Shown here: positions 3,644-16,360 of the stretch, piece by piece
How the letters are laid out: every line of letters begins with the position of its first letter
Numbering within the stretch: the first letter of the stretch is position 1
Assembly: GCA_001464505.1 (NCBI GenBank)
Contig: LNEH01000203.1
Coordinates: 1 to 43,115, forward strand
Reading direction: 5' to 3'
DNA from: Verrucomicrobia bacterium Ga0077533
GTDB taxonomy: Bacteria > Verrucomicrobiota > Verrucomicrobiia > Opitutales > Opitutaceae
Length of the DNA: 43,115 bases
Notes under the pieces: generated by a model
Told to the model about the DNA's origin: nothing
The model's input: the letters and a program-made list of their open reading frames with translations, nothing else
Databases searched by the model: none
Made by a program: the position numbers and the translations under genes

Positions 3644-4177
3644 TCAGGGCTTTTTCCGCACGGGCACCTGCACCTCGGAGCGTTTGGCAAACCACGGGGT
3701 GAACGGCCCGTGCCAGTAGACAGCATAGGCGGGGCCGGTGGCCTCCAACCCCGGTTGGTCGGCGAGCCAAGCCAGCAACTCGGATTTGGTTTTTTCGAAG
3801 TTGGCCTTGGAGTAGGAGCCCCGCGCCCCGCGCGCCGCGACCTCCCGCGCCGGCAACAGCACGACCTCGACCCCGGGGGCCGGACCGGTCGCCTTCGCGA
3901 CCTCGTTCTGCCCCACCCAGAAATACATGGCCGCCTCATCGATCTGCGCCTCCACCGGCACGGTCATCTTGATGTCGCGGGAGGAGATGTAGTTGAAGAG
4001 CGGCCGGAAAAGCCCGCCGCTCTCCTCGAAATAATTCCCGGCCCGGGCGGCCTTGATCAGGGTGCCGGCGGGCAGGGTCTTGACTTCATTCACCCCGGGA
4101 GCGGTGGGCGGGAAGGCTTGTTCGTAGGCCATGGCGGAGGCGGAGAGGAGCAGGGTGATGACAACCGGGCGAAACAT
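3644..4177 (-). CDS. SOUL-family haem-binding protein, exported
   Basis: 177 aa from ATG 4177, chosen because it starts a clear signal peptide (MFRPVVITLLLSASAMA) where longer frames give nonsense. The mature part follows the SOUL/HBP fold: an early YEQAFPP strand, repeated beta-alpha-beta units with GNYFEESGGLFRPLFNYIS, then the family signature region DIKMTVPVEAQ. It ends with YAVYWHGPFTPWFAKRSEV. Proteins of this family bind haem or porphyrins. The export signal places it in the periplasm, which suits a genome segment rich in c-type cytochromes. It is transcribed away from the hypothetical gene at 4274. The physiological partner cannot be read from the sequence. Confidence 0.85.
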   Translation of the reverse strand: MFRPVVITLLLSASAMAYEQAFPPTAPGVNEVKTLPAGTLIKAARAGNYFEESGGLFRPLFNYISSRDIKMTVPVEAQIDEAAMYFWVGQNEVAKATGPAPGVEVVLLPAREVAARGARGSYSKANFEKTKSELLAWLADQPGLEATGPAYAVYWHGPFTPWFAKRSEVQVPVRKKP

Positions 4178-4273
4178 GGGTGCGGGGAGGATACGCGGCA
4201 GTATCTGTGGCGGATGCGCGCCGTGTCCACTTCGCGCTTGCGGGGCGGGGCGGGCGGGCAAGGGTGGGCTGTT

Positions 4274-4738
4274 ATGAAAGCCGCCTTCACCGCCAAGGAA
4301 TTCCGCCAGCTCCTCGAACTCGTGCATCTGGGCATGTGGACCGTCACCGGCTACCAGGGGGAGGACTCCGCCGCAGCCAAGCGCTATTACGTCCTGGACC
4401 AAAAATTGCTGGAGCTGGCGACCGAGGCGGGTTGCGCGGATTTCGTGGAAAAACACACCGATGGTTCCCTGCAGCCGGCGCCGAAACTGTCCGAGGACGA
4501 GCGCGTGCGCGAAATCCAGAGTGAATTCCAGAACGACGTGTTCTGGCACGAGCTGGTCACGCGGCTGGCTGACCGCGACCAGGCGGGCGACCAGGTGAAA
4601 CGCGCCATGGACACGCCCGGCGTCGAGCCGCCGCCGTCGCGCGACGACCAGCTCAAGAAGATCGAGGACCGCTACTGGGTGGAGTTCGAGAAACATGATC
4701 TCGCCAACATCGTGCTGCTCCGCGGCGGGCGGGGGTGA
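4274..4738 (+). CDS. Conserved-looking hypothetical protein
   Basis: 154 aa from ATG 4274, the first in-frame start downstream of the divergent SOUL gene; the longer frame overlaps that gene entirely. The product is soluble, acidic and mostly helical, with no signal peptide, membrane segment or Cys motif. Recognisable stretches include ELVHLGMWTVTGYQ and RYWVEFEKHDLANIVLL. I do not recognise the family. The composition is normal for this genome and there is no close partner gene: a dispersed repeat follows at 4768. Confidence 0.75.
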   Translation: MKAAFTAKEFRQLLELVHLGMWTVTGYQGEDSAAAKRYYVLDQKLLELATEAGCADFVEKHTDGSLQPAPKLSEDERVREIQSEFQNDVFWHELVTRLADRDQAGDQVKRAMDTPGVEPPPSRDDQLKKIEDRYWVEFEKHDLANIVLLRGGRG

Positions 4739-4767
4739 AAGGATTGGGTCTCTCCAACCCGAAAGAT

Positions 4768-4847
4768 TTAACCACTGATCTCTCGGATAAAAATGCCGGA
4801 TAAATGGATTGCTCGCCATCCGTGCCAATCCGGGAAATCCGTGGTCA
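4768..4847. repeat. Dispersed inverted-repeat element, family H
   Basis: The element begins AACCACTGATCTCTCGG and ends AAATCCGTGGTC. Its arms are loosely inverted around GGATAAA and GGATTG steps, with the look of the widespread environmental-bacterial repeat built from ACCACTGAT and ATCCGTGGT. It lies between convergent genes and has no coding capacity. Family membership is from memory of the pattern, not a search. Confidence 0.5.
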
Positions 4848-5559: not shown

Positions 5560-5648
5560 GTCATCGCGAGGCCCGCCCGGCGGGCCGTGGCGATCCAAAT
5601 CAGATGGATTGCTTCGTCGGCCCCCTGTGGCGGCCTTCTCGCAATGAC
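5560..5648. repeat. Dispersed palindromic element, family C, copy 1
   Basis: Terminal inverted repeats GTCATCGCGAG and CTCGCAATGAC flank an internal GATGGATTGCTTCGTCG. The flanks extend the dyad, with TTGCAAAA on both sides in inverted orientation. A second copy is at 20461-20538. It matches my recollection of a common REP-like sequence in environmental bacteria. There is no open frame. Confidence 0.8.
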
Positions 5649-5772
5649 ATTTTGCAACACACCCCAGCCGCACGGCACCGAAACGGAGGTTTGCGGTCGG
5701 ACGACCGATCAACACACTCGGCCCGACATGAATTCTAATACATCCCCCGCAGCCTGCTGCGGGAATTTCCCA

Positions 5773-6366
5773 ATGAGATTAGGGCGCCGCACTGGCGCAA
5801 GGGCGGCGCGCAAATTTCCCTGCCTGCTGTTCGCCCTTCTGTTGCTGCCCGGCCTTTTGCCCGCCGCCGAGCGGGTGCTGAAAATCGACCGCAGCCGCTC
5901 CTTCCTGGACGTGGATGTGGATGCGACCAAAAACTTCACGGCCCGCCTCGACGCCTACGTCGCCCGGGTGACGGTGGACGCCGCCGGGAAGATCAAGAGC
6001 GCGGTGTTCACCTTCAAGTTCGCCGACCTCAAGTCCGGCCACGACTCGCGCGATGCCGACATGATCAAGTGGCTGGGCGGCGGCACGCCCGAAGGACGGT
6101 TCGAGCTGGGGAACCTCGCCCTGACCCCCGACGGGCAGGGGCAGGCCTCGGGGCGGTTGATTTTTCATGGCGTCACCGAGCGCATCGAGTTTCCCATCAA
6201 TGTTTCCCGCGCCGACGGGGCCTACGCCATCACCGGCGAGACGACCATCGATTACCGCAGCTGGAATCTTAAGGTGATCCGCAAGGCGTTACTCTTTACG
6301 GTTTCGCCCGAGGTGAAAGTGCGCTTCAAACTGACGGGGGTTCCGGTCGAAGAACCGGCGAAATAA
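5773..6366 (+). CDS. YceI-family periplasmic protein
   Basis: 197 aa from ATG 5773; an ATG at 5728 would add 15 residues. The later start gives a clean signal peptide, with an Arg-rich head and then FPCLLFALLLLPGLLPAAE. A perfect 7-bp hairpin (CCCGCAG/CTGCGGG, 5746-5763) lies between the two starts. The mature part matches the YceI lipocalin-like barrel: LKIDRSRSFLDVDVDAT, FKFADLKSGHDSRDADM, GRLIFHGVTERIEFPINV and TTIDYRSWNLKVI. YceI proteins bind isoprenoid or lipid molecules in the periplasm. In redox loci they are often thought to handle quinone-like ligands, which fits the c-haem gene 75 bases downstream, but that link is inference. Confidence 0.85.
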   Translation: MRLGRRTGARAARKFPCLLFALLLLPGLLPAAERVLKIDRSRSFLDVDVDATKNFTARLDAYVARVTVDAAGKIKSAVFTFKFADLKSGHDSRDADMIKWLGGGTPEGRFELGNLALTPDGQGQASGRLIFHGVTERIEFPINVSRADGAYAITGETTIDYRSWNLKVIRKALLFTVSPEVKVRFKLTGVPVEEPAK

Positions 6367-6441
6367 CCCGCCGCTGAAGCGTATCAGGTCCGCAGACAAA
6401 GCAGGCTTGCCTTCTTCGCTCCGCAGGTTGGTGTTTTGCCA

Positions 6442-7152
6442 ATGAAGACGATAAAACTACTCACGGTTATTAGTTTGTTTGGTGGAATGGTGCTGGCGGC
6501 GCGGGCCTCCGCGACCGACGCGGCAAAGCCAGCCACCGAGCCCACCATCACCTATTTGGAAACCCCGAACAAGATTCCAGCCATGCCGGACGGCAGCATG
6601 GCCGCCTTTGTCATTGGCGGCGATGAGACCGCCAACCAGATCGCCCAATACGGCTTCAAGATGATCGAACAGATCGGCGGCCTGATGATCGCGGAGACCA
6701 ACCGCGAGCTGGCCAACCGCGAGATCAGCGAGGCCGTCAGTCTCTTGCACCTCAAGAGCATGGAGCTGCCCAAGCCGGTCGCCGGCCGGCCCACCATCAC
6801 GGCCATCAAGCGGACCAGCCTGCTGATCCGCGATCCGCGCAACGCGCCGGACGCCGCCGACACGGCCGCCTTGAACAAAATCCACTCGCAGCTGATGGCC
6901 GATCAAATCCCGGACAAGATGCTGGTGCAAAAAATCGAGCGGGCCGGCCAACCGGTCGAATGGCGGGTCTATCGTCCGATCGGCGCTTCCCAGTCCTGCC
7001 TGGCCTGCCACGGCGACCCGAAGACATTCCGGCCCGGCGTGAAAGCCGCGCTCGACCTGCTCTATCCCGAGGACAAGGCGGTGGATTACAGCGCCCGGGA
7101 ATGGCGCGGCATCATCCGGGTGTCGATGACCGCCCCGGCCGCGGCGAAGTAA
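6442..7152 (+). CDS. DUF3365 c-type haem protein, exported
   Basis: 236 aa from ATG 6442 with a signal peptide (MKTIKLLTVISLFGGMVLAARA). The body is the DUF3365 sensor-like fold: ANREISEAVSLLHLKS, TAIKRTSLLIRDPRNAPD and EWRVYRPIGASQSCLACHG. The single CxxCH at residues 186-190 is a covalent haem site, placed as in haem-containing members of the family. It ends with EDKAVDYSAREWRGIIRVS. A paralogue sits at 33672-34340 with the same order of motifs. Family members act as periplasmic redox or ligand sensors or small electron carriers. Here it lies just before the reductase-cytochrome locus, with which it may cooperate. Confidence 0.88.
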   Translation: MKTIKLLTVISLFGGMVLAARASATDAAKPATEPTITYLETPNKIPAMPDGSMAAFVIGGDETANQIAQYGFKMIEQIGGLMIAETNRELANREISEAVSLLHLKSMELPKPVAGRPTITAIKRTSLLIRDPRNAPDAADTAALNKIHSQLMADQIPDKMLVQKIERAGQPVEWRVYRPIGASQSCLACHGDPKTFRPGVKAALDLLYPEDKAVDYSAREWRGIIRVSMTAPAAAK

Positions 7153-7242
7153 GAATCCTTTGGCAAGGCAGCACGGGCAGGGCGGACCGGCCCGGTCCGC
7201 CAAATGATGTCGCGGCGCACCCGGCCTTCTTGCCTCGCAGCC

Positions 7243-8502
7243 TCACGCCTCCAGCACGACATCCCCCTTGGGCTGGGCGATGCACGTCAGGCAGGTGCGC
7301 GCCTCCGGGGGATTGCCGGGGGCTTGGATGTAGGTAACATCGCCCCATTGCATCGCCACAACGCAGGTTCCGCAGTTGCCGGCGCGACAGCCGGAGGCGA
7401 TCACAATCCCGGCATGTTCGGCGAGATCGAGCAACGTGGCGTGCGTCCCGTCCCAGGGCAGGGAGCAGGCGCTCTTGCGGAAGGTCACCAGCGGCGGCGT
7501 GGCCGGGGTTGAAGCGGTGGCCCGCGGGACCAGTCCGACCCGCTTGACGCTCAACGGGCCGAACGCCTCGAAGTGCAGGTGCAAGTCGGGCACGCCCCAT
7601 TGTTTGAGGCCGCTCGTCAACGCCTCCATCATCGGCCCGGGGCCGCAATAGTAGAACCGGAAGTTGCTGGAAGGCAGTTCCCGCTGCAGCAGCTCCGGGG
7701 TGATCCGCCCGCGGATCTGATAATCTTCGCCCAACCGGTCGCCCGGGTCCGGCCGGGAGTAGCAGAGGCGCAGGTTGATGTGAGGGTGGTCGCGCCTCAG
7801 GGCCTCAAGCTCGGCCGCAAACAGCTGCTCGCGGCGGTTGCGCACGCTGTAGAAAAACCAGATCGTGCGCCGGCTCTTCTGATGCACCAGGGTGGCGAGC
7901 ATGCAAAAGACCGGCGTGACGCCGATGCCGGCACCGATCAGCACCACCGGATCGGGCTCGTTGGGTTCGAGCCAGAAATTGCCCATCGGGGCGCGCAGAT
8001 CGAGCAGGTCTCCCTCTTGGATCACATCATGAAACATGCCGGAGCTGAGGCCGGCCGAAGCCGCGCCGGGACCGGCCGGCGGCAGCACCCGCTTGATGCT
8101 GACACGATAGTGCCCCTGGTGCGCCCGGTCGCTCAGGCTGTAGCAACGGATCAGCTGGCTGTTCCCGTGCGTGCTGGGCAGGCGGAAGGTCAGATACTGG
8201 CCGGGCTTGAAAGAGGGCAGGGGCTTGGAGTCATGCGGCTTCAGGTGGAAGGAACAAACGGAAGGGCTCTCCACCATCTTGCGGCTGACGACAAATTTGC
8301 GAAAGCCATTCCACGGCAACGGCTCCTCGGCGAGGCGGCGATGCCGCGTGCGTGCGGCATCCAGCTCTTCCCGCAACCGGGCGATTTCAATCTCGCGCCG
8401 GGCCTTCTCGGCGCGGACCCGTTGGAGGGCGGCGATCACGCCCAGGACCAATCGGACGATCACCAATCCGATCAGAGCGAGGCCAAGATAGGTCCAGAGC
8501 AT
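7243..8502 (-). CDS. Membrane-anchored FAD/NAD(P)H reductase with C-terminal [2Fe-2S] domain
   Basis: 419 aa. Residues 3-25 form one membrane helix and 27-60 a charged coiled coil. Next is a ferredoxin-NADP-reductase-like FAD domain with RCYSLS at 119-124, then an NAD(P) domain with GAGIGVTP at 190-197 and YCGPGPMM at 285-292. The C-terminal plant-type ferredoxin domain has Cys 372, 377, 380 and 407. This FAD-NAD-[2Fe-2S] order is that of phthalate-dioxygenase-reductase and Hcr-type enzymes, not NqrF. It should move electrons from NAD(P)H to a one-electron partner at the cytoplasmic membrane face. It is divergent from the cytochrome operon at 8721, with 218 bases between, so the cyclic-nucleotide ferredoxin (9780) or the b-type protein (11522) are plausible partners. 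Confidence 0.88.
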   Translation of the reverse strand: MLWTYLGLALIGLVIVRLVLGVIAALQRVRAEKARREIEIARLREELDAARTRHRRLAEEPLPWNGFRKFVVSRKMVESPSVCSFHLKPHDSKPLPSFKPGQYLTFRLPSTHGNSQLIRCYSLSDRAHQGHYRVSIKRVLPPAGPGAASAGLSSGMFHDVIQEGDLLDLRAPMGNFWLEPNEPDPVVLIGAGIGVTPVFCMLATLVHQKSRRTIWFFYSVRNRREQLFAAELEALRRDHPHINLRLCYSRPDPGDRLGEDYQIRGRITPELLQRELPSSNFRFYYCGPGPMMEALTSGLKQWGVPDLHLHFEAFGPLSVKRVGLVPRATASTPATPPLVTFRKSACSLPWDGTHATLLDLAEHAGIVIASGCRAGNCGTCVVAMQWGDVTYIQAPGNPPEARTCLTCIAQPKGDVVLEA

Positions 8503-8720
8503 GGCGAAAATTCTTTGGGGCGTGGTTTAAGGACGACCGGCACAGCCGGTGGCGGGGGACGTTATCAGGGAGAGACCCGCCGCAGACAAACCGAATATGG
8601 TGGAGAATCGGCTTGCGCAGGAATTTCGCAGCTTAATCTTGGCGGCGAGGTTACATCACACCTCTGCCCCGCCTTTATCCCAATGCTGTCTTGCCCGGGC
8701 CGCCCCTGCCACCGCCTCCC
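8503..8720. promoter_or_regulatory. Divergent promoter region of the reductase and cytochrome operon
   Basis: No gene in 218 bases between two divergent starts. It contains a small hairpin (ACCGGC.ACA.GCCGGT, near 8534-8548) and a weak candidate promoter for the plus strand (TTGCGC near 8613, TAATCT near 8635). Both transcription units must start here. I see no FNR or NO-regulator box that I would defend. Confidence 0.35.
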
Positions 8721-9755
8721 ATGCGCCTGAGAGATTTGCTGTCGGGCCACCACCGCCGGGCTCTCACCGGCCTGCTGCTGGCCTTGGCCCTTTCGGGCCG
8801 GGTTGCCGCGGCGCCCTTGGCCGACAAGGTGACCGGCCCGGAGTCGTGCGCCGAATGCCATGTCGAGGAAATCGAAGCCTGGAAACGCACGGTGCATCGA
8901 AAGACGCTCAACGAACTGCCCCGCCGGCCGGAGACGGCCGACATGCTCCTCCGTCTGGGCCTGACGAACATGAAAACCGAGCGGCAATGTCAGGATTGCC
9001 ATTTTCTGGGCAAGATCATCGACGACGAATACCAGACCGTGGCCGGCATCGCCTGCGAGTCCTGTCACGGCGCGGCCAGGGACTGGGTCAAGACGCACGG
9101 AGACTACGGAAATGGCGTGACCAAGGCGACCGAATCAGCCGAGCACCGCGCGGCCCGCCGCGCCCAGGCGGTCGCAAGCGGCATGATCAGCCCCGACAAC
9201 CTTTACGTCCTCGGAGCGGCTTGTTATGGCTGTCACATCGTAACCGACGAAAAAATCACCAATGTCGGCGGCCACCCTCCCGGCAGCGCGGGTTTCAGCC
9301 TGCTGACTTGGTCCCAGGGCGAGGTCCGGCACACCATTTTGCACACGGGCAACAAGGCCAACCCCGAGGCGACGCCCGAACGCCGGCGCGAACTTTTTGT
9401 CATCGGCTCCATCCTGGAGGTGGAATTTTGTTTTCGCGCCGTGGCGCGCGCCACCACGAAGGCGGAATTCGGCGTCGCCCAGGCCCGCCGCGCCGACGCG
9501 GCCCGCAAGCTGCTCGAGAAAATCCAGGCACTCGCCCCGATGCCCGAACTGGCCGAGATCGTCGCGATCGCCCAGGCGACGGGCCTGCGCCTGAACAATG
9601 CGGCGGCGCTCACGGCCGCGGCGGATAATATCGCCGGGTTGGGGCGCAAATTGGCCGGCCGGATCAACGGCGCCCAACTGGCCGGCCTCGACATGCTGCT
9701 GCCGGGTCCGGAACACTACAAGGGCACGCCCTATCAGGTCGGGGGCGCGCCGTAG
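8721..9755 (+). CDS. Tetrahaem c-type cytochrome, c554-like
   Basis: 344 aa from ATG 8721, which begins a signal peptide (LTGLLLALALSGRVAAA). Four CxxCH sites are visible at residues 43-47, 90-94, 112-116 and 168-172, with extra His and Met residues between them for axial ligands. This spacing fits the cytochrome c554-type module (PF13435-like). The C-terminal half has no haem motif and is Ala-rich and helical. It is the first gene of the plus-strand operon, 24 bases before the cyclic-nucleotide ferredoxin. It should be periplasmic and could take electrons from, or deliver them to, the decahaem protein at 12356. Confidence 0.88.
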   Translation: MRLRDLLSGHHRRALTGLLLALALSGRVAAAPLADKVTGPESCAECHVEEIEAWKRTVHRKTLNELPRRPETADMLLRLGLTNMKTERQCQDCHFLGKIIDDEYQTVAGIACESCHGAARDWVKTHGDYGNGVTKATESAEHRAARRAQAVASGMISPDNLYVLGAACYGCHIVTDEKITNVGGHPPGSAGFSLLTWSQGEVRHTILHTGNKANPEATPERRRELFVIGSILEVEFCFRAVARATTKAEFGVAQARRADAARKLLEKIQALAPMPELAEIVAIAQATGLRLNNAAALTAAADNIAGLGRKLAGRINGAQLAGLDMLLPGPEHYKGTPYQVGGAP

Positions 9756-9779
9756 CCGGCCGCATCTCCCTCCAGCACC

Positions 9780-11525
9780 ATGGCGAAATCCACCAGCAGC
9801 GCCCCGAATTACTCGGGTTCCCTCCCGCCCCAGGCGCCGGCCAAGCGCACCGCCGCACCGGAGCGCTGGGACAAACCCTTCAGCGCCGACATGGGGGAGG
9901 CGGAGGTGGATCTGCTCCTCGCGCACCCGCTTTTCATCTCGACCCAGCCCAGCCGCTTCCCGGCGTCGATTCCACTCCGGGGCCTTTTGAAAAACGACGC
10001 CCGCCTCCGCCGGTTTCAACGGGGTGAAATCATCGTGCGCCAGGGCGACTACGGCCACTCGGCCTTTGTGATCCTCGACGGCACGGCGCGGGTGTTTCTC
10101 AAGGAGCCGGCGGCGGAGCAACTGGGCCGCCGCCGGCAGGTCCGGCCGACCGTCTGGGGCAGTTTCAAGCGCTGGCTGCAGCGGCCGCGTTTTGCGGAGC
10201 AGACGACCAACCGCGGCTCGGCGGCGGCGCTGCAACTGACCCGCGACGGCGAGGCGCGAATTTTCCTGCAGGATGTGCCGGGCGTGCTGGAGCCCGACCG
10301 GACGCTGCAACTGGGCCCCGGGGAAATGTTTGGCGAAATCGCGGCGCTCGGCCGCACGCCCCGCACCGCCACGATTGTGGCGGACGGGGACACGCAGATG
10401 CTCGAGATCCGCTGGCAGGGCCTGCGCGAGATCCGCAAATACTCCCTTGAGTGGAAGCAGCAGATCGACCAGCGCTACCGCGAGCGCAGCCTGCGGCGCC
10501 ATCTCGCGGAAACCTCGCTGTTTTGGCACCTGTCCGAGGAGGCGCTGGGATTGATCGCCGACGCCACACGGTTCGAGACGTTCGGGGAGTTTGACTGGCA
10601 CCGCGCGTATCACCGTGAGCGCGAGGTCGGCGAGCGCGAGCGGCTGGAACAGGAGCCGCTGATCGCGCGGGAAGGGGACTACCCCAACGGATTGCTGCTG
10701 GTGCGCAGCGGTTTCGCCCGGGTGAGCAGCCGCTACAACCACGGCGAACGCACCGAAAGCTACCTCGGCAAGGGCGAGGCCTTCGGCCTGGGCGAGCTCA
10801 TCGCGGGCTGGCAGGGAAAATTCCGGCCGCTCCGCCACAGCCTGCGCGCGCTCGGCTACGTGGACGTCCTCTTCATCCCCACCGCCGTGCTCGAGCAACA
10901 CGTTTTTCCGCGGCTCACGCCGGAGCAGCTTGCCGCCCTGACGAAAAACCTCGCGCCGGAGCCCGCCGGTTCACCCCACCCCGATCACACCGGGAACAGT
11001 TTCCTGGAATTCATCGTGGCGGGGCGGTTCATCAACGGCCGCGCCGCCATGCTGATCGATTTGGACCGCTGCACGCGGTGCGACGATTGCGTGCGCGCCT
11101 GCGCGGCGACGCACGACAACAATCCGCGCTTCATCCGGCATGGGCCCGAGTCCGGCGGCGTGATGGTGGCCAGCGCGTGCATGCATTGCGTGGACCCGGT
11201 CTGCATGATCGGCTGCCCGACGGGGGCGATCCACCGGGAAAGCATCAACGGCCAGGTGGAGATCAATCCCGACACCTGCATCGGCTGCAGCGTCTGCGCG
11301 CAAAGCTGTCCCTACGGCACGATCCAGATGGTCGCGTTGCACGACGATGCGGGCCTGCCCGTGGTCACGGAGGAAACGGGCGAGCCGATCCGCCGCGCCA
11401 CCAAGTGCGACCTTTGCATCGACCAGCCGGCCGGTCCGGCCTGCGTCAGCGCCTGCCCGCATGACGCCCTGATCCGGGCTGATATGCGGTCCTTCGACAA
11501 TTTGAACCGATGGCTGCACCGATGA
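9780..11525 (+). CDS. Cyclic-nucleotide-binding protein fused to a four-cluster ferredoxin
   Basis: 581 aa without signal peptide or membrane helix. Two cyclic-nucleotide-binding-like domains come first. One, about 70-240, has RFQRGEIIVRQGDYGHSAFVI and GEMFGEIAALGRTPRTATIVA around a proline/arginine-rich insertion. The other, about 255-400, has LIAREGDYPNGLLLVRSGFA and GEAFGLGELIAG. From residue 425 follows a DmsB/NrfC/HybA-type ferredoxin with 16 Cys: 431/434/437/441, 467/470/475/479, 500/503/506/510 and 543/546/555/559, enough for four [4Fe-4S] clusters. There is no DNA-binding helix-turn-helix, so it is not a CRP-type regulator. The stop overlaps the next start (ATGA). It probably docks on the cytoplasmic side of the b-type protein and may be gated by a nucleotide; the gating is inference. 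Confidence 0.92.
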   Translation: MAKSTSSAPNYSGSLPPQAPAKRTAAPERWDKPFSADMGEAEVDLLLAHPLFISTQPSRFPASIPLRGLLKNDARLRRFQRGEIIVRQGDYGHSAFVILDGTARVFLKEPAAEQLGRRRQVRPTVWGSFKRWLQRPRFAEQTTNRGSAAALQLTRDGEARIFLQDVPGVLEPDRTLQLGPGEMFGEIAALGRTPRTATIVADGDTQMLEIRWQGLREIRKYSLEWKQQIDQRYRERSLRRHLAETSLFWHLSEEALGLIADATRFETFGEFDWHRAYHREREVGERERLEQEPLIAREGDYPNGLLLVRSGFARVSSRYNHGERTESYLGKGEAFGLGELIAGWQGKFRPLRHSLRALGYVDVLFIPTAVLEQHVFPRLTPEQLAALTKNLAPEPAGSPHPDHTGNSFLEFIVAGRFINGRAAMLIDLDRCTRCDDCVRACAATHDNNPRFIRHGPESGGVMVASACMHCVDPVCMIGCPTGAIHRESINGQVEINPDTCIGCSVCAQSCPYGTIQMVALHDDAGLPVVTEETGEPIRRATKCDLCIDQPAGPACVSACPHDALIRADMRSFDNLNRWLHR

Positions 11526-12343
11526 AATCATTTCTCGCCCGCCGCTGGATGCTGTCCCTCGCGACTCTCACGCTGGTCCTCGCGCTGACGCTGGCGTGGT
11601 GGCTTCTGTCGAACGCCCTGCGGCCGGTGGGGTTGTATACCGGCTGGCTGCTGCTGGGGCTGGTGTTGCTGCTGACCTTTTTCAACGCCCGCAAGAAACT
11701 GCCCTTTCTGCCGCTCCTGAACGCCAGCACCTGGTTGCAAATCCATGTCTATGCCGGCTGGCTCACCTGTTTTGTTTTTGCCTTGCACACCGGGGCCCGC
11801 CTGCCCGGAGGGCGGCTGGAATTTTTGCTCTGGCTCTGCTTCATCGTGGTGGCCGCCAGCGGCGTCTTCGGTCTCTGGCTCAGCCGGTGGCTGCCACCCC
11901 GGCTGGCCCGCTCCGGCGAGAGCCTCGTCTACGAACAGATACCCCTGCTGCGTCACCGCTTGGAGACGGAGGCAAAGGCCTTGGTGCACCAGGCGGAGGC
12001 CGAGGCGAAGTCCACCACGCTGGCGGATTTTTATGTGCGGGTGCTGGGGGACTGTTTCGCGCGCCACCCGGCGCTGCTGGCCCCGCTGGCGGGCGACGAT
12101 GCGGAGTATCACCGCGTGAAGCTCGAGCTCGCCGCGTTGCGCCGCTTTCTGAACGAACGCGAGATTGCCCTGGCCGACCAGCTCGGGGAATTGCTCGAGG
12201 CCAAACGCAACCTCGATTGCCAGCTGGCGGGCCAGCGCCTGCTCAAGCTCTGGCTGTTTGTCCACATCCCGCTCACCTACGGGTTGCTCGTCCTGATCGG
12301 CGCACATGTGTGGCTGGTCCTGCATTATTCGCACCGGCTGTAA
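11522..12343 (+). CDS. b-type cytochrome-like membrane protein with central cytoplasmic loop
   Basis: 273 aa, ATG 11522 overlapping the previous stop. Five hydrophobic helices are predicted: 11-30, 38-54, 72-92, 99-121 and 243-266. The third contains His75 and His89, and the last His248 and His262, each pair 14 residues apart, the spacing that stacks two haems b in ferric-reductase and cytochrome-b bundles. Between helices four and five lies a roughly 120-residue charged, helical loop (LRHRLETEAKALVHQAEAEA). I did not match it to a named family. Position between the ferredoxin and the decahaem cytochrome makes it the likely membrane electron carrier of a complex. Confidence 0.8.
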   Translation: MKSFLARRWMLSLATLTLVLALTLAWWLLSNALRPVGLYTGWLLLGLVLLLTFFNARKKLPFLPLLNASTWLQIHVYAGWLTCFVFALHTGARLPGGRLEFLLWLCFIVVAASGVFGLWLSRWLPPRLARSGESLVYEQIPLLRHRLETEAKALVHQAEAEAKSTTLADFYVRVLGDCFARHPALLAPLAGDDAEYHRVKLELAALRRFLNEREIALADQLGELLEAKRNLDCQLAGQRLLKLWLFVHIPLTYGLLVLIGAHVWLVLHYSHRL

Positions 12344-12355
12344 CCCGATCCCACC

Positions 12356-14554
12356 ATGCGCCGCCTGCTGCAGAGCATCATCTACAACCGCAAACTCTAC
12401 GATCGTCCGCAGGATGAGTGGATCTGCGGGCGCGCGGCCGAGGGCTGTCCGTGCATTTATGGGCCCGGCCCGAAGGGCGAGTGCCGCGCCACCGGCCGGT
12501 GCCTGCCGGCGAAAAAGGGCGATCGCTGGGTCTGCACGCGGGCAATTTCCCTTGGGGCCGAATGCGAACCGGGTCCGCGACCCGACGGCACCTGCGGCTG
12601 TCCGGTGCCGCCTTGCCGTCCGCAGCGCAGCCTGCGTGCCGAGCGCGGCCGGTTGGTCTGGCTGGTGGTTTGCCTGGCGCTGGGGCTGGTCGTGCTGGCC
12701 CTGTGGGGGCAGACGCGAACCGAGTGGTCCAACCCCGGGCCGTTGACCAACCAGCATGCGGTGTCGGCTCATCGCTGCACGGACTGCCATGTGGAATCGT
12801 CCGGATTAATCCTTTCCTCCTCCGCCCGCTCGTCCCGGATCCAGCAGCACAACCAGCTTTGCATCAACTGCCACGACCTTGGGCCGCACGGCGAGTCGCC
12901 CCACGGCGTGGCCGTCTCCGAACTCCTCGATATCGCCCGCACCCAGCAGCGGGCGACGGACACGCGCCCCATCGCGTTGGCGGCCGCGCATGCGGTGGGC
13001 CCGTCCGCCGATCTGGCCTGCGCCGCCTGCCATAGCGAACACCGGGGGCAGAACCTCAACTTCAAACACCTGAGCGACCGGCAGTGCCAGGTCTGCCACC
13101 AGACGCAGTTCGCCGGCTTCGCGGCGGGCCACCCGGAATTCGCCGGTTATCCCCATGAGCGTCGCACCCGGTTGCAGTTCGACCATGTGACTCACTTTCA
13201 AAAACATTTTCCCGATCTGCGCGTGCCGGCGCCCCCGCCCACCTCCTGCGCCCAATGCCATGAACCGGCGGCGGATGGACGGCAGATGCTTGTCCGGGGC
13301 TTTGAGCAAACCTGCGCCCAGTGCCACGCCGGTCAGATCGAAGGTGTGGGCCGCGCGGGGGCCAAGGGTCTGGCGTTCCTGCGCCTGCCGGGCTTTGACC
13401 TCGCCGCGCTGCAGGCGGCCGGGGTCGGTGTCGGCGAGTGGCCGGCCTTTTCCGAAGGCGGTCTCACGCCCTTCATGCGCTGGTTGCTGGAGGGCGACGA
13501 AAAGGCGCGGACGGCGCTCGCGACCTTGGGCAACCACAGCCTCGCCGACCTGAGGTCGGCCACGCCGGCGCAAAAAGCCGCCGCCGCGCAACTGCTTTGG
13601 AGCATCAAGGGCCTGTTCGCCGACTTGGTCACACAGGGTCAGCCGGTCATCATGCGCCGCCTCGGATCTCCGGCCGGGGTGCAGGCTTCCCTGCCGCAGC
13701 GCACCGGCCAGTTTTCCGCCGATGTCGCGCTCGCCGCCCAGCAGGCGTGGCTGCCCAACCTGCTCGCGGAAGTGGCGGCCCATCGGCGCGGGGAAAAAAT
13801 ACCGCCCGCCCGGCCTGCGCCCGTTCGTCTCAGCGGCCCCGGACCGGCGCCGGCAGTTTCTGGAAATCCCGTGCCGGATCCCGATGATTTGCTGGCCGAC
13901 TCCGCGCCTGAAACCAACCCGGCCGCTCCGGCCGGCGCGACCGCGGCCCTCCCGGCGCCACCACCCGCCGGGCTGGAATTTGATCCCGCCGAGGATCGCG
14001 TCGCGTCGGGCGGCTGGTATCGGCAGGATGACACCTACACCCTCTATTACCGGCCCGGTGGCCACGAGGATTCGTTCCTCACCGCCTGGCTTGAGGGCAC
14101 GGCGGGCAACCCCGCGCCCACGGCGCAGAAAATATTCCAGCAGCTTTCCGCGGACAACTCCCCCGGGGTTTGCATGAAATGCCACACCGTCGACCGGACC
14201 GCCGCGGGCACCACGGTCAACTGGCGGGCCGCGCGGCCGGAGCCGGACGTGCGGCCGTTCACCACGTTCAAGCATACCGCGCACTTCAGCCTGATGGGCG
14301 ACCAGGGCTGCGCCACCTGCCACACCATCGCGACCGGTGCCGACTATGCCGGCTCCTTCGGGGCCAATCACGACCCCGCATTGTTCCAGAGCAACTTCGT
14401 CCCGATCTCGAAGAACACCTGCACCGCCTGCCACCAGCCCGCCAAGGCGGGCGAGAGTTGTCTACAGTGCCACAATTACCACACCGGCGAGACGCAGAAA
14501 TTGCGCCTGCAGTCGGCGGAAATTCCCCGCAGCGCCCCCCTCGGCCGGCCATAA
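12356..14554 (+). CDS. Membrane-anchored decahaem c-type cytochrome with N-terminal Cys-rich module
   Basis: 732 aa. Residues 1-95 contain ten Cys (24, 31, 33, 43, 49, 60, 70, 80, 82, 87) and many Gly/Pro, then one membrane helix at about 100-117. The rest should be periplasmic. Ten CxxCH sites are visible: starts at 141, 169, 222, 244, 298 and 320, then near 606, 652, 689 and 702. The 280 residues between the two haem groups are haem-free, with a helical part and a Pro/Ala-rich linker. With no signal peptide, the Cys-rich head should stay in the cytoplasm, where it could hold an Fe-S or zinc centre. It follows the b-type gene by 12 bases. The function is probably electron export or exchange across the membrane; the substrate is unknown. 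Confidence 0.9.
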   Translation: MRRLLQSIIYNRKLYDRPQDEWICGRAAEGCPCIYGPGPKGECRATGRCLPAKKGDRWVCTRAISLGAECEPGPRPDGTCGCPVPPCRPQRSLRAERGRLVWLVVCLALGLVVLALWGQTRTEWSNPGPLTNQHAVSAHRCTDCHVESSGLILSSSARSSRIQQHNQLCINCHDLGPHGESPHGVAVSELLDIARTQQRATDTRPIALAAAHAVGPSADLACAACHSEHRGQNLNFKHLSDRQCQVCHQTQFAGFAAGHPEFAGYPHERRTRLQFDHVTHFQKHFPDLRVPAPPPTSCAQCHEPAADGRQMLVRGFEQTCAQCHAGQIEGVGRAGAKGLAFLRLPGFDLAALQAAGVGVGEWPAFSEGGLTPFMRWLLEGDEKARTALATLGNHSLADLRSATPAQKAAAAQLLWSIKGLFADLVTQGQPVIMRRLGSPAGVQASLPQRTGQFSADVALAAQQAWLPNLLAEVAAHRRGEKIPPARPAPVRLSGPGPAPAVSGNPVPDPDDLLADSAPETNPAAPAGATAALPAPPPAGLEFDPAEDRVASGGWYRQDDTYTLYYRPGGHEDSFLTAWLEGTAGNPAPTAQKIFQQLSADNSPGVCMKCHTVDRTAAGTTVNWRAARPEPDVRPFTTFKHTAHFSLMGDQGCATCHTIATGADYAGSFGANHDPALFQSNFVPISKNTCTACHQPAKAGESCLQCHNYHTGETQKLRLQSAEIPRSAPLGRP

Positions 14555-14567
14555 TTTCAGTCCGCCC

Positions 14568-15680
14568 ATGCGCTTTCTCGCGCTCGTCTTGGTCAATCTC
14601 CGCCGGCACCACCTGCGGGCCCTCATCGGCGTCGCGGGCATCGGCTTTGGCGTGGCGGCGATGCTGACCATCCTGTCCATCGTCCACGGGGCCATCGGCA
14701 TGTTCGAGCGCATCCTCGCCGTGGACTCGCACTACGTCGTGTTCGAGAAAAATGTCTCCGACCTGTTCTTCAGCAGTGTGCCGGACGAAAAGACCGCCGC
14801 CCTGCGGAAAATGGCCGGCGTCGCGTCGGCCGAGCCGCTGCTGTTTGGCCTCGTGACCTCCGGCGACCGCCCGATCATCACCTGCTTCGGCCTGGAGGCG
14901 AGCAACCCGCGCCTCGCCCAGGCTCAATGGTCCGCCGGCCGGCGCGAGGATTTCGGGCGGATCAAGGACGGCATCTGGCTCGGGGCGCGCGCGGCGGAAT
15001 TTCTAGAAGCGAAGGCCGGGCAAAAAATAGCCATCGGCAAGGGCGAGTTCATCGTCGCCGGCATTTTCTCCACGGAGAACGGCTTCGAGGACGGCGGCGT
15101 TTTTTTGCCGCTGCGCGCGGCGCAGGAATTTTTCAGCCGCGCCGGGGTGGCGTCGGTCGTGGCCGTCAAATTGCGCGACGAGACCCGCGGCGCGGAGTTC
15201 AAGCGCGCCGTCGAGGCGGGCAACCCGGGCCTGCTCGCGCTCGAGAACCGCGAGTTCAACCGGAGCTACACCCAGTTCAAGATTCTGCGTTTCATGGCCT
15301 GGGCGGTGGGACTCTGCGCGTTCCTGCTCGGCGGGCTGGGCGTGGCGAACACGATGCTGCTCTCCGTGTTCAGCCGCATCCGGGAGATCGCCGTGCTGCG
15401 GGTCTGTGGTTTTTCGAAAGGGCAGGTGGCCGGGCTGATCCTGGGCGAGGCCGTGGTGATCGCGGCGGCGGGTTTGGTGCTGGGCCTGGGGCTGGGCTAC
15501 GGCGCGCTCTTTGCCCTGGAGCGGGCGCCGCAGTTCCATGGTTACATCCAGGCGGTGGTGAAACCCGGCTTGCTGGCCGCCATCGCAGCCACGGCGCTGA
15601 TGACTGCGGTCGCCGGTTCGCTCTGGCCCGCGCGTTTTGCGGCCCGTATCCAGCCCGCGGAGGCGCTGCGCTATGAGTGA
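14568..15680 (+). CDS. FtsX/MacB-type ABC transporter permease
   Basis: 370 aa from ATG 14568. The layout is the four-helix FtsX-like permease: helix 1 at about 17-38 (ALIGVAGIGFGVAAMLTILSI), a roughly 200-residue periplasmic MacB-PCD-like domain, then three C-terminal helices beginning FMAWAVGLCAFLLGGLGV. The conserved coupling segment FSRIREIAVLRVCGFSKGQV is present. It lies 13 bases after the decahaem gene and overlaps its ATPase gene. Related permeases extract lipoproteins or export small molecules. Here it may help assemble or deliver the cytochrome complex, or may only share its promoter. Confidence 0.9.
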   Translation: MRFLALVLVNLRRHHLRALIGVAGIGFGVAAMLTILSIVHGAIGMFERILAVDSHYVVFEKNVSDLFFSSVPDEKTAALRKMAGVASAEPLLFGLVTSGDRPIITCFGLEASNPRLAQAQWSAGRREDFGRIKDGIWLGARAAEFLEAKAGQKIAIGKGEFIVAGIFSTENGFEDGGVFLPLRAAQEFFSRAGVASVVAVKLRDETRGAEFKRAVEAGNPGLLALENREFNRSYTQFKILRFMAWAVGLCAFLLGGLGVANTMLLSVFSRIREIAVLRVCGFSKGQVAGLILGEAVVIAAAGLVLGLGLGYGALFALERAPQFHGYIQAVVKPGLLAAIAATALMTAVAGSLWPARFAARIQPAEALRYE

Positions 15681-16360
15681 GAGCGCCGGCAATTTGTAAC
15701 GTATTAATTGACGAATTGACATGTCCAAGAACGAACCACTCGTCTCGGCCCGCGGCCTGCGTGCTGGAGGGCGCAAACCTGGAGGTGCGCGCCGGTGAAA
15801 TGGTGGCGCTGTGGGGCGCGTCGGGCTCGGGCAAAAGCACGCTGCTCCACCTGCTCGGCGGCCTGGATGTGCCCGACGCGGGCGAACTGACGGTCTGCGG
15901 ACTGAATCCATGCATCGAAACTCACCGTCTGGAATTGCGCCGCCGGCACCTGGGTTTTGTTTTCCAACTGCACAATCTCATCCCTGATCTTACGGTCGCC
16001 GAGAATCTCCGGGTGCCGGCGCTGGCCACGGGTGCGCCGCCGGCCCAAACGCGCCTTCGGGTGGGCGAGCTGGCGGAAGCCGTTGGCATCACCCCCCGGC
16101 TCAACCATCGCATCCAGGATATTTCCGGCGGCGAACGCCAGCGCACCGCCATCTGCCGCGCGCTGATGAATTCACCGCGCCTGCTGCTGGCGGACGAGCC
16201 CACCGGTTCGCTCGACGAGGAGACCGGCGACAATGTCTTCGGCCTGCTGCGCCATCTGGTGCAGACGCGCGGCATCGCCATCGTGCTCGCGACGCACGAG
16301 CGGCGCTTCGCCGAGCAGTGCGACCGGGTGCTGAGAGTGCGGGCGGGGCGGATCGAATAG
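15677..16360 (+). CDS. ABC transporter ATPase with a damaged N-terminus
   Basis: From GTG 15677 the frame is open, overlapping the permease stop as GTGA. Homology starts only at VLEGANLEVRAGEMVALWG (codon at 15761). Walker A GASGSGKST, the signature ISGGERQR, Walker B LLLADEPTGSLDEE and the H-loop LATHERR are intact, as in LolD/MacB-type subunits. The usual first strand and its A-loop tyrosine, about 25 residues, are not in this frame. A different frame from ATG 15721 reads MSKNEPLVSARGLR, exactly how such proteins begin, so a deletion of non-triplet length has probably joined the two. A hairpin repeat (15691-15717) also sits just after the overlapping ATG at 15673. It may be non-functional, or the damage may be an assembly error. 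Confidence 0.75.
   Translation: MRAPAICNVLIDELTCPRTNHSSRPAACVLEGANLEVRAGEMVALWGASGSGKSTLLHLLGGLDVPDAGELTVCGLNPCIETHRLELRRRHLGFVFQLHNLIPDLTVAENLRVPALATGAPPAQTRLRVGELAEAVGITPRLNHRIQDISGGERQRTAICRALMNSPRLLLADEPTGSLDEETGDNVFGLLRHLVQTRGIAIVLATHERRFAEQCDRVLRVRAGRIE
15691..15717. repeat. AT-rich hairpin element, family D, copy 1
   Basis: AATTTGTAACGTATTAATTG followed by ACGAATT: the ends are inverted with one mismatch (AATTTGT/ACGAATT). Two further copies, at 18749-18773 and 31803-31829, share the core TTTGTAACGTATTA. It stands between the FtsX stop and the conserved part of the ABC gene, in the window's most AT-rich few bases outside the island. Confidence 0.8.

Follow-up and report, generated by a model that had tools for sequence, protein, structure and literature searches.

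Several described systems follow one logic, in which electrons pass from an iron-sulphur (Fe-S) protein through a membrane step to multihaem c-type cytochromes, as in NrfBCD and the CymA/NapC proteins. In the extHIJKLMNOPQS clusters of Geobacter, pentahaem or multihaem cytochromes accompany an outer-membrane protein; the published description assigns ExtO to the Rieske proteins and ExtP to the bc-type cytochromes b (PMC5877670). For Verrucomicrobia, He 2017 proposed putative porin-multihaem complexes, with IMCC26134 among the genomes named, and the model in that paper draws the inner-membrane step merely as 'ET in IM' (PMC5615132). Here we characterize a set of genes from Verrucomicrobia bacterium Ga0077533 (Opitutaceae), carried on a 43,115-nucleotide stretch of DNA (assembly GCA_001464505.1, contig LNEH01000203.1, positions 1 to 43,115; the whole stretch is termed the window). 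The set encodes a flavin reductase, a c554-like cytochrome, a ferredoxin with cyclic-nucleotide domains, a five-helix membrane protein and a decahaem cytochrome, which in our judgement probably, though by no means certainly, form an electron conduit through the inner membrane that is independent of quinone and controlled by a cyclic nucleotide.

The set follows the logic of NrfBCD and CymA/NapC but has no match to an NrfD or NapC domain, and its proposed b haems would replace the quinone site. Its ferredoxin resembles the HydN/HycB type in the four-cluster half and differs in the two cyclic-nucleotide domains placed in front, NCBIfam matches falling under cut-off. With the DUF4405, MsrQ, PepSY and ferric reductase-NADPH oxidase proteins it shares four His on two helices at a spacing of 14, two b haems predicted between cytoplasm and periplasm, and a likeness in that the reductase of the set carries its own transmembrane (TM) helix; unlike that group, the membrane protein has five predicted helices, a C-terminus that probably lies outside and a cytoplasmic insert of about 110 residues, and in the set a ferredoxin stands as a relay between the flavin and the haems, with a multihaem c exit. 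None of the curated cut-offs of that group is reached by the window protein. The Geobacter ext clusters name no cyclic-nucleotide ferredoxin in the excerpted account (PMC5877670) and differ also in that the window has no outer-membrane barrel module; direct homology with ExtO and ExtP found no support, these being of Rieske and bc type in that account, and ExtP was not among the best 25 of 37 NCBIfam families matched by 56 members of the five-helix family. The complexes of He 2017 likewise join porin and multihaem genes, and IMCC26134 is named for these and carries the present set too (locus L092, ferredoxin at 7215-8951), but the porin there accompanies an octahaem cytochrome (PMC5615132); an octahaem query meant to link the two yielded short c554-type matches only.

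Four open reading frames (ORFs) on the forward strand of the window are intact, with the positions, the gaps (24, -4 and 12 bases) and the haem counts given in an initial annotation made from the sequence alone: the tetrahaem c554-like cytochrome, probably exported (8721-9755; 344 aa, four CXXCH motifs); the cytoplasmic ferredoxin, with two cyclic-nucleotide domains ahead of four [4Fe-4S] sites (9780-11525; 581 aa); the five-helix membrane protein (11510-12343; 277 aa); and the decahaem cytochrome c, with a cytoplasmic Cys domain at the N-terminus and a single TM anchor (12356-14554; 732 aa, ten CXXCH motifs). The five-helix gene may start at a second ATG at 11522, which gives a 4-base overlap with the ferredoxin gene. 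The flavin reductase, the proposed point of electron entry, is encoded divergently on the reverse strand (7243-8502; 419 aa), and third-codon-position GC is 0.82-0.87 in this gene and all four others. The earlier reading of these genes as a transmembrane electron-transfer set, with the flavin reductase as its likely input, is supported by our analysis, and the reductase gene proves to be part of the conserved set; what that reading missed is the cyclic-nucleotide identity of the ferredoxin domains, an eight-Cys domain in the decahaem protein, and putative outer-membrane partners in 20 of 30 relatives.

Occurrence was surveyed with the five-helix protein as query (E <= 0.001). A relative is encoded by 9 of the 57 genomes in a kinship series and by 19 of the 387 in a phylum sample, the genome of origin included in each, with about five of the latter represented by weak or partial matches. 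Among genomes of a named collection, 511 stretches encode a relative, from which 80 loci were kept; as recorded, these belong to Verrucomicrobiota (53), Pseudomonadota (10), Planctomycetota (9), Myxococcota (2), SAR324 (2), and Latescibacterota, Nitrospirota and Poribacteria (one each), with one locus without assignment, so that 27 of the 80 lie outside Verrucomicrobiota. Among named relatives, Opitutaceae/Opitutia (Verrucomicrobiota) are the nearest. Three loci (L045, L046, L115) come from metagenome-assembled genomes titled Akkermansia muciniphila, a species label that looks doubtful; they group with Opitutae or other Verrucomicrobiota by a quick tree of the ferredoxins or by the set carried.

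Gene order was examined in eight relatives and in the 80 named loci. The eight relatives' stretches all encode the reductase, ferredoxin, five-helix and decahaem proteins, and six encode the c554-like protein. Thirty of the named loci offer 18 kb or more of context; counts for these and for all 80 rest on tblastn, greedy ORF picking having given shadow ORFs in some GC-rich loci. Reductase, five-helix and decahaem genes are present in 30/30 of these full-context loci, the ferredoxin gene in 29/30 (not L098) and the c554-like gene in 29/30 (not L072), 19 of them close relatives (at least 149 bits); across all 80, many of which are cut short, the reductase is found in 65, the c554-like gene in 63, the ferredoxin in 77 and the decahaem protein in 80. 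Pairwise distances of the reductase, ferredoxin, five-helix and decahaem proteins correlate (r 0.77-0.86), a relation that shared ancestry explains in part. The genes are kept together elsewhere, and the condition that the initial annotation named as refuting its reading, a lack of such conservation, did not hold. A stripped variant occurs in a Nitrospira bin (L098, 3963-11703), which has no cyclic-nucleotide ferredoxin, a reductase consisting of the [2Fe-2S] part, and a decahaem protein without the Cys domain. A plasmid search returned two records at E <= 0.01, both Sphingobium megaplasmids carrying a divergent set (L013, 5185-16347, and L014), one plasmid being typed conjugative; 12 stretches of viral contigs fitted a pattern, none of them encoding a five-helix relative.

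Conservation of motifs was counted in alignments of proteins above a length floor (75 of 83 ferredoxins, 82 of 86 membrane proteins, 63 of 69 reductases, 62 of 65 c554-like proteins and 82 of 85 decahaem proteins). The ferredoxin had been described as soluble, with four clusters and nucleotide-binding domains. The clusters stand, each of the 16 Cys of four [4Fe-4S] sites (11070-11456, forward strand) being kept in at least 74 of 75 sequences; the domains are instead cyclic-nucleotide domains of the CRP/PKA type, as indicated by Pfam matches to cNMP_binding (1.4e-27) beside Fer4 families and by matches in the Protein Data Bank (PDB) to PKG and PKA RI as well as HycB-like ferredoxins. The phosphate-binding cassette of the first domain (GEMFGEIAALGRTPRTATI; 10320-10376, forward strand) has the consensus GxFFGEIAALxRxPRTATI, in which the ligand Glu and Arg, the residues by which such a cassette is judged, each occur in 75/75 sequences; ligand binding and its effect are predicted from them. 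The second domain has the Glu in 73/75 and no conserved Arg.

A variant of this picture, which we regard as distinctly unlikely, has the same conduit with the cyclic-nucleotide fold sensing NAD(P)H, or merely docking, and no second messenger. Consistent with it are the degenerate second domain, the presence of cyclase sequences near the set in only 6 of 86 stretches, and the precedent of HoxI of soluble hydrogenase, whose CAP-like cyclic-nucleotide domain is thought to bind NADP (PMC12319191); the invariant Glu and Arg of the first cassette and the kinship with PKG and PKA RI argue the other way. Of the class III cyclase-like sequences in those six stretches, Pfam confirmed a CHASE2-cyclase in L100 only, and the genome of origin has seven class III cyclase matches. 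In the Sphingobium plasmid L013 a calcineurin-like phosphoesterase gene follows the decahaem gene (annotated CpdA in the other plasmid), and the cyclic-nucleotide ferredoxin is a fusion with a pyridine-nucleotide flavoprotein, the L014 gene being of equal length; direct flavoprotein-to-ferredoxin transfer is therefore likely in L013. Phosphoesterase, cyclase and fusion do not single out cAMP or cGMP as the bound nucleotide, and cyclase proximity is only a hint. Cyclic-nucleotide domains are typical of regulators, which would suit a very improbable arrangement of co-located, co-regulated genes with no single chain, the ferredoxin being a regulator that senses redox through its clusters; against it stand the flavoprotein fusion, the correlated divergence of the proteins, and the finding of no DNA-binding domain among the Pfam matches.

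The flavin reductase combines NAD_binding_1, FAD_binding_6 and Fer2 domains (Pfam), with the [2Fe-2S] motif C-terminal, and is closest to the reductase of flavohaemoglobin (NCBIfam flavohaemoprotein, 3e-72, 244 bits, under a cut-off of 432; PDB flavohaemoprotein 3ozu, 2.3e-44). Its FAD (RxYS), NAD(P) (GxGxTP) and CX4CX2C columns are kept in at least 61 of 63 aligned sequences, the [2Fe-2S] Cys columns in 61-63 of 63. An N-terminal TM helix is predicted in 59/63, with Lys plus Arg at 0.14 before it and 3.9 after it (n=51), a charge pattern that places the N-terminus outside, the C-terminus inside and the bulk of the protein in the cytoplasm. The c554-like protein bears out its original assignment, matching Pfam Cytochrome_C554 (PF13435, 53.2 bits against a cut-off of 20.8, E 5.9e-14) and, as best solved structure, cytochrome c554 (PDB 1bvb, 2.3e-8), with all four haem sites in 62/62 aligned relatives; its score against NrfH is 30.7 bits, under the cut-off of 134.

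The membrane protein was first read as having five helices and two His pairs, and the four His are present in 82/82 sequences: H79 and H93 on helix 72-94, H252 and H266 on helix 216-274, each pair spaced by 14. An AlphaFold2 (AF2) model from an alignment of 56 of 76 rows, the window included (pLDDT 92.1, pTM 0.83), has helices at 3-35, 40-61, 72-94 and 102-134, three shorter ones, and the long 216-274. We propose, from these motifs and the predicted topology, that it is a b cytochrome with two haems and a long helical insert on the cytoplasmic side; H79/H252 would form the inner and H93/H266 the outer pair, as placed by eye from charges beside the helices. The window protein matches no Pfam family at E <= 0.1. 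Scans of 56 members, considered for the best 25 of 48 Pfam and 25 of 37 NCBIfam families, gave weak Pfam matches to DUF4405 (34, best 8e-5), Ni_hydr_CYTB (16) and Ferric_reduct (11), which indicate the two-haem b class, the window protein itself scoring 13.3 bits with DUF4405, under the curated cut-off of 26.7; a purified DUF4405 protein shows haem b spectra (PMC11334425). Judged by family matches the protein is not NrfD-like, as had been thought: there was no NrfD match at E <= 0.1, nor was NrfD among those best 25 Pfam families, and a bc-type cytochrome b reading was rejected for want of a supporting match among the same Pfam and NCBIfam families. Two further loci (L161 and L162; G017:C71 and G000:C40) have DUF4405 matches within long open frames of 949 and 521 aa, and a nearby G017 frame of equal length matched a multihaem query too, which suggests other fusions of b and c cytochromes.

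The decahaem protein matches Cytochrome_C7 (4e-14) and Paired_CXXCH in Pfam; its ten CXXCH motifs begin at residues 141 to 702, and the haem sites are kept in 77-82 of 82 sequences. Its TM anchor (12653-12709, forward strand; hydropathy 2.69 over 19 residues) agrees with the membrane anchoring originally assigned, one TM helix being predicted in the first 170 residues of 85/85 proteins. A NapC/NirT reading was rejected, no such domain matching at E <= 0.1. Preceding the anchor is a domain of two four-Cys repeats (12425-12616, forward strand; C24, 33, 43, 49 and C60, 70, 80, 87, residues 24-87), here termed Cys8, in which each Cys occurs in 80/82, the exceptions being L098 and the Sphingobium plasmid L014. 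The L013 protein, outside this alignment, has an FHA-like start that scored under Pfam cut-offs, and L118 apparently has three four-Cys repeats, judged by eye. No Pfam match of the domain among 53 members was better than E 0.027, and of the PDB matches listed, beyond which a family may still be related, the best had E 0.12 by sequence and 8.7 by Foldseek; AF2 modelled it (53 of 77 rows for the Cys8 and decahaem protein, window included) at a mean pLDDT of 83. The eight Cys suggest a metal site, and the domain may serve in docking: L098, a single case, jointly lacks ferredoxin, FAD part and Cys8 domain, as if these were docking partners.

Beyond the inner membrane, 20 of the 30 full-context loci also encode a putative outer-membrane barrel and another multihaem cytochrome, while ten have neither of two types. 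The first type (13/30) joins a pentahaem c554-type cytochrome with a protein of about 490 residues; in the second (7/30) an LVIVD-repeat cytochrome with ten haems (about 1300 residues) is accompanied by a protein of roughly 800 residues and by one that is HbpS-like. Pfam identities of neighbouring genes are those of one representative each. Neither the 490- nor the 800-residue protein has a match in Pfam or NCBIfam. Outer-membrane proteins often end in Phe or Tyr, and we call these proteins putative barrels because their C-terminal residue is Phe in 21/24 (490-residue) and Tyr in 12/15 (800-residue). Of 13 named loci that have the 1300-residue cytochrome, the ferredoxin tree places 12 in a single supported clade of 22 Verrucomicrobiota; beyond this clade the cytochrome occurs in L118 and both Sphingobium plasmids. 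The window lineage is nested among relatives of the first type, and its ancestors may therefore have had a barrel. The window itself encodes neither type (tblastn).

The partner cytochromes match Geobacter profiles of a selenite/tellurite operon (ExtM 1.8e-20, ExtKL 3.2e-9), both far under cut-off. Together with the flavohaemoglobin-like reductase and the c554 structure as best solved match of the first gene, these matches could be taken to indicate a periplasmic detoxification or assimilatory reductase, acting on NO, hydroxylamine, or selenite/tellurite, with the c554-like or partner cytochrome as its catalyst. We consider this unlikely: the c554-like gene is dispensable in 2 of 8 relatives' stretches, and no known terminal reductase was recognised among the recurrent neighbour clusters (ten proteins scanned). 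No catalytic cytochrome was found in the set, in keeping with the initial annotation.

In the conduit that we favour, NAD(P)H would reduce the FAD of the membrane-anchored flavin reductase, and electrons would leave its [2Fe-2S] cluster for the soluble ferredoxin with its four [4Fe-4S] sites, these cofactors being predicted from motifs. The ferredoxin may have two docking sites, the five-helix protein's insert in the cytoplasm and the decahaem protein's Cys8 domain, and two stacked b haems would then carry electrons across the membrane to ten c haems and the tetrahaem c554-like protein in the periplasm; cAMP or cGMP at the first cyclic-nucleotide domain would open or close the transfer. In many relatives the chain would continue through the putative barrel and multihaem cytochrome to an outside acceptor, and in the genus of the window its end may be periplasmic, or lie with a partner whose gene is elsewhere. 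The TM helix of the reductase may take the role of helix 6 in NADPH oxidases and ferric reductases, and the set could therefore be a split form of that design. We infer the order of electron flow, its outward direction, its gating and its physiological role; outward flow is the simplest reading given the order of the parts, and since the route would bypass quinone and dissipate membrane potential, controlled shedding of surplus reductant would fit. The parts are reversible in principle, and the Nitrospira bin L098 has a reduced variant, so that inward flow, with an outside or periplasmic donor reducing NAD(P)+ or ferredoxin, deserves mention; it seems highly improbable to us, because reduction of NAD+ by multihaem c would as a rule be uphill and would run against the membrane potential, and reductases of this family mostly run from NAD(P)H.

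Several observations weigh against the favoured conduit. The set is patchy, with the five-helix protein present in 6 of the 20 further genomes in the window's genus. The c554-like gene is the loosest member: it is absent from L017, L020 and L072 (as the ferredoxin is from L098), 9 of 29 copies are divergent (49-62 bits) and on the opposite strand, that of L078 (104 bits) lies far downstream, and its distances correlate less with those of the other proteins (r 0.53-0.75). Cyclase proximity is rare, and four of the six cases are one Verrucomicrobiota group, in a raw count. Structural comparison of the five-helix protein gave nothing at E <= 0.001 among the Foldseek matches listed, beyond which a family may still be related; the Streptococcus pneumoniae NADPH oxidase 8qt6 reached Z 7.0, level with unrelated helix bundles, and hhalign probability with ferric reductases was 11%, with a profile from eight Ferric_reduct proteins in a poor eight-row alignment. 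The genome of origin (83% complete) gave no match to the 1300-residue cytochrome, positive controls having matched, and none to the pentahaem query in a search without a positive control; since neither cytochrome matched, the outer-membrane step is unsupported for this organism.

Other genes flank the set. Just upstream (5587-7152, forward strand) are YceI-like and Tll0287-like proteins, the latter with a single CXXCH; a Tll0287-like gene lies near the set in 6/6 genus relatives examined and a YceI-like gene in 5/6. Directly downstream (14619-16360, forward strand) are a MacB/LolE-type ABC permease and a LolD-like ATPase, a pair also near the set in L015, L017 and L020 and not found in the other five relatives' stretches. 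A SOUL haem-binding domain protein is encoded at 3644-4828 (reverse strand).

No published description of the set was found in the literature searched, judged on best matches, most of which held no cyclic-nucleotide term. We tentatively suggest, as a possibility short of an even expectation, that this is the first respiratory-type transmembrane conduit under direct second-messenger gating: a split, NADPH-oxidase-like wire docked through an undescribed eight-Cys metal domain and present in eight or more groups at phylum level. On this reading, binding of cAMP or cGMP to the ferredoxin would switch the export of NAD(P)H electrons to periplasmic or cell-surface multihaem cytochromes. We know of no other system in which a second messenger opens or closes an electron wire, and there is a real chance that this is a new kind of control. 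The set offers a concrete candidate for the inner-membrane exit to multihaem cytochromes in Verrucomicrobiota, Planctomycetota and other little-cultured groups, and it is present in the complete genome of IMCC26134, which we take to be in culture. The eight-Cys domain would be a new biochemical target, and an electron wire switched by a second messenger would, if true, be a new form of respiratory control.

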